A stretch of DNA of 64,000 nucleotides, taken from contig NZ_SSBC01000019.1 in NCBI RefSeq assembly GCF_006475605.1, positions 62,001 to 126,000 on the forward strand. The letters run 5' to 3'. Both the position numbers and the translations under genes were made by a program. Under the pieces are notes generated by a model, which saw only the letters and a list, made by a program, of their open reading frames with translations, made no database searches and had not been told where the DNA came from. This DNA comes from Asticcacaulis tiandongensis. Its GTDB lineage: Bacteria > Pseudomonadota > Alphaproteobacteria > Caulobacterales > Caulobacteraceae. Shown here one piece after another: positions 19,727 to 52,396 of this stretch. The first letter of the stretch is position 1. Each line of letters begins with the position of its first letter.

Positions 19727-19802
19727 ATCACTGATTTCACGAACAGGCCGCAACCGTTACCAAATGTAACCAGTCTTTGATTGTGCAGGGCAATAAGTGG
19801 TC

Positions 19803-19830
19803 TTGATTTACATCGCACCGCAACATAAAT
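19803..19830 (+). promoter_or_regulatory. Promoter of small RNA copy 1
   Basis: TTGATT (19803-19808) and ATAAAT (19825-19830) are spaced by 16 bases and place a start near 19837, just before the first RNA hairpin. Confidence 0.5.
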
Positions 19831-19836
19831 TGAGGA

Positions 19837-19920
19837 TGTACAGCGTTTAGGCGCTGTTGCCCTTCCTGGGCGTTTCCTCCCTGTAGACTTTAGCCGCGCC
19901 GAGATGCGCGGCTTTTTTTT
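19837..19920 (+). ncRNA. Small RNA with anti-SD motifs, copy 1
   Basis: A compact RNA of about 84 nt with three hairpins: CAGCGT-TTAG-GCGCTG (19841-19856), GCCC-TTCCT-GGGC (19859-19871) and a terminator AGCCGCGC/GCGCGGCT (19892-19913) with eight Ts. The unpaired CGTTTCCTCCCTG between hairpins 2 and 3 is complementary to Shine-Dalgarno sequences. A homologue with the same layout is at 52280-52362 on the other strand, and its first stem differs by changes that keep pairing. The design resembles CU-rich trans-acting RNAs of alphaproteobacteria, but I cannot assign a family. It could alternatively be a 3' UTR of the upstream gene, although a promoter is visible. Confidence 0.8.
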
Positions 19921-19954
19921 GCCCGTGCGCTGGCTTAAGCTTACCGGTCTGAGG

Positions 19955-52219: not shown

Positions 52220-52248
52220 ACAACAGTTTTATGACAGTCATGTGACAG
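52220..52248 (-). promoter_or_regulatory. Pho box with three direct repeats
   Basis: On the minus strand CTGTCAC, CTGTCAT and CTGTTGT start every 11 bases (52248, 52237, 52226), the spacing of PhoB half-sites; the last two form an 18-bp box CTGTCATAAAACTGTTGT, close to consensus. Confidence 0.88.
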
Positions 52249-52279: not shown

Positions 52280-52362
52280 AAAAAAAAGCCGCGCATTGCG
52301 GCGCGGCTTGAAGTCAACAGGGAGGAAACGCCCAGGAAGGGCGACAACGCCGAAGCGCTGAT
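52280..52362 (-). ncRNA. Small RNA with anti-SD motifs, copy 2
   Basis: Homologue of the RNA at 19837-19920. Read on the minus strand: hairpin CAGCGC-TTCG-GCGTTG (52360-52345), hairpin GCCC-TTCCT-GGGC (52342-52330), unpaired CGTTTCCTCCCTG, then terminator AGCCGCGC/GCGCGGCT type (arms 52301-52308 and 52287-52294) with eight Ts. Compared with copy 1, stem 1 changes a G-C to G-U and a U-G to C-G, keeping pairing, while the loop and CU-rich motifs are identical. The gene sits between the Pho box of pstS and fghA, with its own promoter. Confidence 0.82.
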
Positions 52363-52368
52363 GAGGGA

Positions 52369-52396
52369 TATATAGGGTGCGCTGCGAAAAGTGCAA
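52369..52396 (-). promoter_or_regulatory. Promoter of small RNA copy 2
   Basis: Minus strand TTGCAC (52391-52396) and TATATA (52369-52374) with 16-base spacing, placing the start near 52362, one or two bases before stem 1. Confidence 0.65.

Follow-up and report, generated by a model that had tools for sequence, protein, structure and literature searches.

Sibling small RNAs (sRNAs) pose the question of why several near-identical regulators are kept. The 64,000-nucleotide stretch of Asticcacaulis tiandongensis DNA analysed here, which we call the window, raises it with two related RNAs, copy 1 on the forward and copy 2 on the reverse strand. A preliminary description, made from the letters alone, had presented them as a small RNA family under different promoters that may answer different signals. 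Our analysis places both RNAs in an established family and gives them one common promoter layout, which suggests a different answer.

Membership in the alpha-r8 family

Both RNAs are present where they had been described, at 19837-19920 (+) and 52280-52362 (-). When the whole window is run through cmscan with 4227 Rfam families, exactly two matches reach the gathering thresholds, both to the covariance model RF00519 (suhB/MmgR, alpha-r8), which is the match kept within its clan. Copy 1 scores 65.7 bits (19852-19927, +) and copy 2 62.9 bits (52349-52271, -), where membership requires at least 41 bits. The two are paralogous members of the alpha-r8 family of MmgR and SisA-D, that is, new members of a known family. 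The preliminary description was right to see a small RNA family and had not recognised it as an established one.

The genome holds three RF00519 copies. The third (locus L085; 68.2 bits) adjoins the FGase gene (N-formylglutamate amidohydrolase family), the site at which most species keep a single alpha-r8 copy (PMC12559287). This site is occupied by the third copy only, and copies 1 and 2 lie elsewhere. A tyrosine-type phage integrase gene (L085, 5538-6752) and phage-like genes lie near the third copy, and a related integrase (82%) lies near the corresponding FGase-linked copy of another genome (G013, locus L091). A search for plasmid copies gave no match.

The family occurs in 56 of the 61 genomes searched, our own included, and all 24 genus relatives are among the 56. 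Sampled more broadly, in 142 genomes spread over the class, it gives a match in 81, and in 65 of these a match exceeds the threshold. When the exact core is required together with the genus-type flank, all 17 stretches found in named genomes belong to Asticcacaulis. The comparisons below use 77 genus copies, which are the fetched matches of at least 41 bits among those listed (L079, which has no exact core, is left out), and an alignment of 63 rows comprising the distinct Asticcacaulis copies, from which 10 non-genus and 14 identical sRNA rows were removed.

Alpha-r8 sRNAs are also seen in phage sequence. Among 20 IMG/VR loci found by the exact core (L169-L188), 17 pass the RF00519 threshold, as do two of three annotated phage records (L189, L190, L191); some short contigs that carry tRNAs may represent flanking host DNA. 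In Bradyrhizobium phage ppBeUSDA76-1 the match (62.8 bits) lies directly before HNH endonuclease and terminase genes, and at the equivalent place of ppBdUSDA122-1 there is a match below the threshold. By script, a PhaR-type box accompanies 2 of 25 core sites of the phage loci, some of these core sites not being sRNAs. The open-licence literature yielded no description of Asticcacaulis alpha-r8 RNAs or of phage-borne ones.

Structure of the two RNAs

The elements of the two RNAs are as follows.

19837-19920 (+): alpha-r8 sRNA copy 1, from the RF00519 match and the fold; its start is placed from the -10 and its end is the T-run
19840-19857 (+): stem 1 of copy 1 (19840-19846 with 19851-19857), from covariation; outside the Rfam model
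19859-19871 (+): stem 2 of copy 1, GCCC/GGGC with loop UUCCU, from the Rfam match, alignment and fold
19872-19884 (+): single-stranded CGUUUCCUCCCUG of copy 1, including the seed UUUCCUCCCU (19874-19883), from core search and fold
19892-19920 (+): Rho-independent terminator of copy 1, made up of the stem 19892-19913 and the T-run after it, from fold and covariation
52280-52362 (-): alpha-r8 sRNA copy 2, from the RF00519 match and the fold
52345-52360 (-): stem 1 of copy 2 (52360-52355 with 52350-52345), from alignment, fold and covariation
52318-52327 (-): seed UUUCCUCCCU of copy 2, from core search
52286-52309 (-): terminator stem of copy 2, from terminator scan and fold

RNAfold bears out the three hairpins, the loop UUCCU, the unpaired CU-rich core and the GC-rich terminator, followed by a T-run, that had been described for both copies. 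The core is unpaired in both centroid structures; in the minimum free energy structure of copy 1, folded from 19833, four of its bases pair with the 5' end of the RNA. Fold z-scores are -2.5 for copy 1 (2 of 200 shuffles fold as well) and -4.0 for copy 2 (0 of 200). Both copies thereby show the two marks of alpha-r8, a weak hairpin followed by single-stranded UUUCCUCCCU, and a Rho-independent terminator. The exposed motif is fit for Shine-Dalgarno pairing, as had been suggested: the seed is unpaired in both copies, and seed pairing is known from Caulobacter SisA.

Two pair differences in stem 1 had been taken as compensatory. They are real and keep pairing (alignment A1: columns 12-25, G-C versus G-U; columns 15-22, U-G versus C-G), but each touches one side only, so that within this pair of copies they are compatible rather than compensatory; a third difference, at columns 9-28 (A-U in copy 1, U.U in copy 2), had been missed. 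The differences between the two copies alone are thus weak evidence for structural selection. The genus alignment is what bears out the selection on structure that had been claimed. Across its 63 distinct rows, two-sided changes occur at 7 of 7 pairs of stem 1, 0 of 4 of stem 2 and 6 of 8 of the terminator, and since all stem-1 pairs change on both sides, we conclude that the structure is selected. Paired cells amount to 96.3%, compared with 88.5% in shuffles and 28-52% when the partner is slid by 1-3 columns, and the covariation score of 0.308 (0.151 in shuffles) is reached by 0 of 500 shuffles, which ignore relatedness. Stem 2 and the seed are nearly invariant across the genus copies. The RF00519 model begins just 5' of stem 2, hence stem 1 lies outside it.

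Among known systems, Sinorhizobium meliloti (S. meliloti) MmgR shares with the window RNAs the covariance model, the seed, stem 2, the terminator and a PhaR-type promoter box, but MmgR is the only alpha-r8 RNA of its genome (PMC12559287), and A. tiandongensis has three. Caulobacter crescentus SisA-D, which are sponged by CrfA, likewise comprise several copies with the seed UUUCCUCCCU, one of them by FGase. AbcR/alpha-r15 RNAs also combine three stem-loops with CU-rich anti-Shine-Dalgarno motifs and show partial RF00519 homology (PMC7143759), but they measure 114-120 nt and carry two such motifs. Membership in that group was rejected for the window RNAs, which are ~83 nt long with one motif and for which RF00519 is the clan match kept.

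A common promoter layout

Upstream of both copies we find the same arrangement: a -35 of the form TTGNNN and a -10 enclose a spacer (17 nt in copy 1, 16 nt in copy 2) that holds a YGCRNYGCR box, and TGTAAC stands 48-49 bp before this box.

19765-19770 (+): TGTAAC of the upstream element TGTAAC-N6-TGA of copy 1, 49 bp before the box, from genus copies
19803-19831 (+): predicted promoter of copy 1, with -35 TTGATT (19803-19808) and -10 TAAATT (19826-19831), from the 77-copy consensus
19814-19822 (+): PhaR-type box CGCACCGCA in the copy 1 spacer, from the motif of PMC12542648
52429-52434 (-): the corresponding TGTAAC of copy 2, 48 bp upstream of its box, from genus copies
52369-52396 (-): predicted promoter of copy 2, with -35 TTGCAC (52396-52391) and -10 TATATA (52374-52369), from the 77-copy consensus
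52378-52386 (-): PhaR-type box CGCAGCGCA in the copy 2 spacer, a YGCRNYGCR match

A sigma-70 consensus scan does not call the copy 1 promoter, and near copy 2 it calls a different place (52471-52442). All three copies of the genome have the box, as CGCACCGCA, CGCAGCGCA and, in the third copy, TGCGCTGCA. YGCRNYGCR stands in the promoter spacer of 66 of the 77 genus copies versus 1.1% of 20,000 random window stretches, a sharing that is partly inherited because the copies are homologous, so that only the contrast with variable neighbours argues for selection. In shuffles of a 78-copy set, which includes one non-genus row, L015, the box appears in a mean of 0.3 copies. The motif is short and matches the window at 24 places; shuffles give more. 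At least two box copies are found in 24 of 25 genomes, and in 14 of the 25 every fetched copy has the box. A first logo was anchored on the box and was therefore circular for it; the alignment was repeated without anchoring, and the 77 upstream regions then show TTGTAACnnTAnnTGA, a variable linker, CTTGnnnTTTTnTGCAnCGCAnnnTATATT and stem 1, with a mean of 1.1 bits over the box.

The upstream TGTAAC accompanies the box: 58 of the 66 copies that have the box carry it as well, and none of the 11 boxless ones does. It stands 47-48 bp before the box in 47 occurrences, that is, in at most 47 of the 58 copies. The exact hexamer is found in copies 1 and 2, and TGTTAC at the aligned place in the third copy. 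A reading of this element as a palindrome was dropped, as a further check did not bear it out. Other upstream sequences occur in the genus. In the inspected members of a boxless group (L009, L050, L053, L057, L067) we see TGACAGCGCTGTCA, an operator-like palindrome, and a diverged subgroup (L066, L080-L084) combines a UUCGG-like stem-2 loop with the promoter CTTGAAT...AATTGTAT and no box.

YGCRNYGCR is the core of the motif WNWD2NYGCRNYGCRNH2WNW of S. meliloti PhaR, a PHB-binding regulator that represses mmgR; in EMSA PhaR shifts the mmgR promoter, and changes to the palindrome abolish the shift (PMC12542648). For Bradyrhizobium the PhaR box is given as NGCN3GC[GA]N3 (PMC10888616). Our genome has a phaR gene (105.8 bits), an hfq gene and one phasin gene, whose upstream region holds TTGTGCAGTGCACAA. 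Of 28 copies in the wider class, taken from 26 of 28 fetched loci, 21 have the box in the same broad slot; together with S. meliloti mmgR, this suggests that the alpha-r8 family has probably long been under PhaR control. Judged by these sites, Asticcacaulis is special in keeping a PhaR-type box on most siblings: of other multi-copy genomes, G030 has the box in the slot in one of four fetched copies and G034 in one of three, which agrees with the report that sisA-D have unrelated promoters. We found no report in the literature of an operator shared by alpha-r8 siblings. The proposal of different promoters answering different signals is not supported by this layout, and because the copies share a PhaR-type promoter site, the two window copies probably answer one common signal.

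Proposed regulation and its alternatives

We propose, and consider it probable, that the alpha-r8 siblings are repressed by PhaR, released when PHB accumulates, and block ribosome sites through UUUCCUCCCU. Each sRNA would be transcribed from its own promoter and end at its own terminator. PhaR bound to YGCRNYGCR in the spacer would repress transcription, as its S. meliloti counterpart does at mmgR; accumulating PHB granules would draw PhaR away and release the siblings together. A second regulator may act at TGTAAC-N6-TGA. By analogy with their relatives, the RNAs would bind Hfq and act in trans, and the single-stranded UUUCCUCCCU would pair with G/A-rich ribosome sites, lowering translation and so trimming nutrient uptake or storage functions.

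The relatives provide the precedents. Caulobacter SisA pairs on Hfq through an identical 10-mer with mRNA 5' regions, represses TonB-dependent receptors among others, and is sponged by CrfA (PMC12559287). MmgR of S. meliloti keeps PHB in check and reduces phasins (PMC9049629, PMC7143759), and mmgR is also under NtrC control (PMC7143759). In our genome GGGAGGA-N3..9-ATG occurs 30 times versus 17 for the reversed pattern, many of these being repeat-like stretches that no long ORF follows. Two genes with a good site are candidate target leads, one of the aquaporin-type MIP kind (L196) and one for a sugar transporter (L216). For TonB receptors, a comparison of 30 of 48 Plug matches (those given loci) with 44 window ORFs, under a crude choice of start maximised in both sets, gives a one-sided p of 0.06, or 0.035 without two receptors in the control set. 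Pairing of the phasin 5' region with the sRNA does not exceed chance, since 125 of 500 shuffles do equally well. These target tests are weak, and we infer the step from seed to target from the relatives. The exact 11-base seed complement occurs once in the genome outside the sRNAs, within a repeat-like stretch, so that a search by exact complement finds no CrfA-like sponge. Repeat-like stretches of the form CCCCG...CAGGGGAGGATG (in our own genome, G000, at L150 and many of L192-L221) match the seed complement and, if transcribed, might soak up the sRNAs.

The same sRNAs could instead be controlled one by one, as in Caulobacter, the box then being left over from a promoter they once had in common. 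The sisA-D genes are reported to show distinct expression, unrelated promoters and no shared upstream motif, and within our data the 11 of 77 genus copies with other promoters and the mostly boxless copies of G030 and G034 point the same way. Against this, the Asticcacaulis siblings have one common layout: box, -35 and -10 are kept in all three own copies and in 66 of 77 genus copies while the neighbouring linker columns vary, and we regard independent control as unlikely.

Two further readings carry far less weight. Both window copies lie ~110 bp after a same-strand gene, so that the sequences might be mere 3'-UTR ends or terminators of upstream genes. The preliminary description had named terminators without conserved upstream hairpins as what would overturn its claim; stem 1 upstream covaries at all 7 pairs, and the sRNA has a conserved promoter of its own. 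By crude ORF calling, the upstream gene of the 77 genus copies is on the opposite strand in 27, on the same strand in 49 and absent in one. Nor are flanking genes kept with the sRNA: a search by flanking proteins found no other sRNA locus with a matching neighbour pair, and the core is absent at all 4 loci of copy 1's upstream gene in other genomes and, for the esterase gene that precedes copy 2, at all 11 fetched loci. We consider this reading very improbable. Copy 2 also lies just upstream of a PstS-like gene that is preceded by two CTGTCAY repeats (CTGTCAC/CTGTCAT, 52221-52248, -), which we take to be PHO-box-like and which could tie this copy to the phosphate response. Both repeats, however, come only after the sRNA terminator (52286), and the core is found in none of the 24 other PstS-like loci, of 26, with upstream sequence visible; in the two further loci the upstream side falls outside the sequence, and one of them (L109) has a core complement ~1 kb beyond the gene. 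With the site not shared and the repeats past the terminator, a shared phosphate role is rejected, and a phosphate response of copy 2 is very unlikely.

Returning to common PhaR control, we lean, by a modest margin of confidence, towards a broader reading for the genus. In Asticcacaulis a cassette of ~160 bp (TGTAAC element, PhaR-operated promoter, sRNA and terminator) would have multiplied into lineage-specific sites. Each genome would thereby carry 2-4 anti-Shine-Dalgarno sRNAs under a single PHB sensor, and the dose of the whole sibling set would be set by the state of its storage granules. Since alpha-r8 is already in Rfam and partly characterised, the surprise is limited. The question of why several near-identical regulators are kept may nonetheless have different answers in the two genera: Caulobacter points to separate signals, whereas the operator-like site common to most Asticcacaulis siblings points to dose control by carbon storage.
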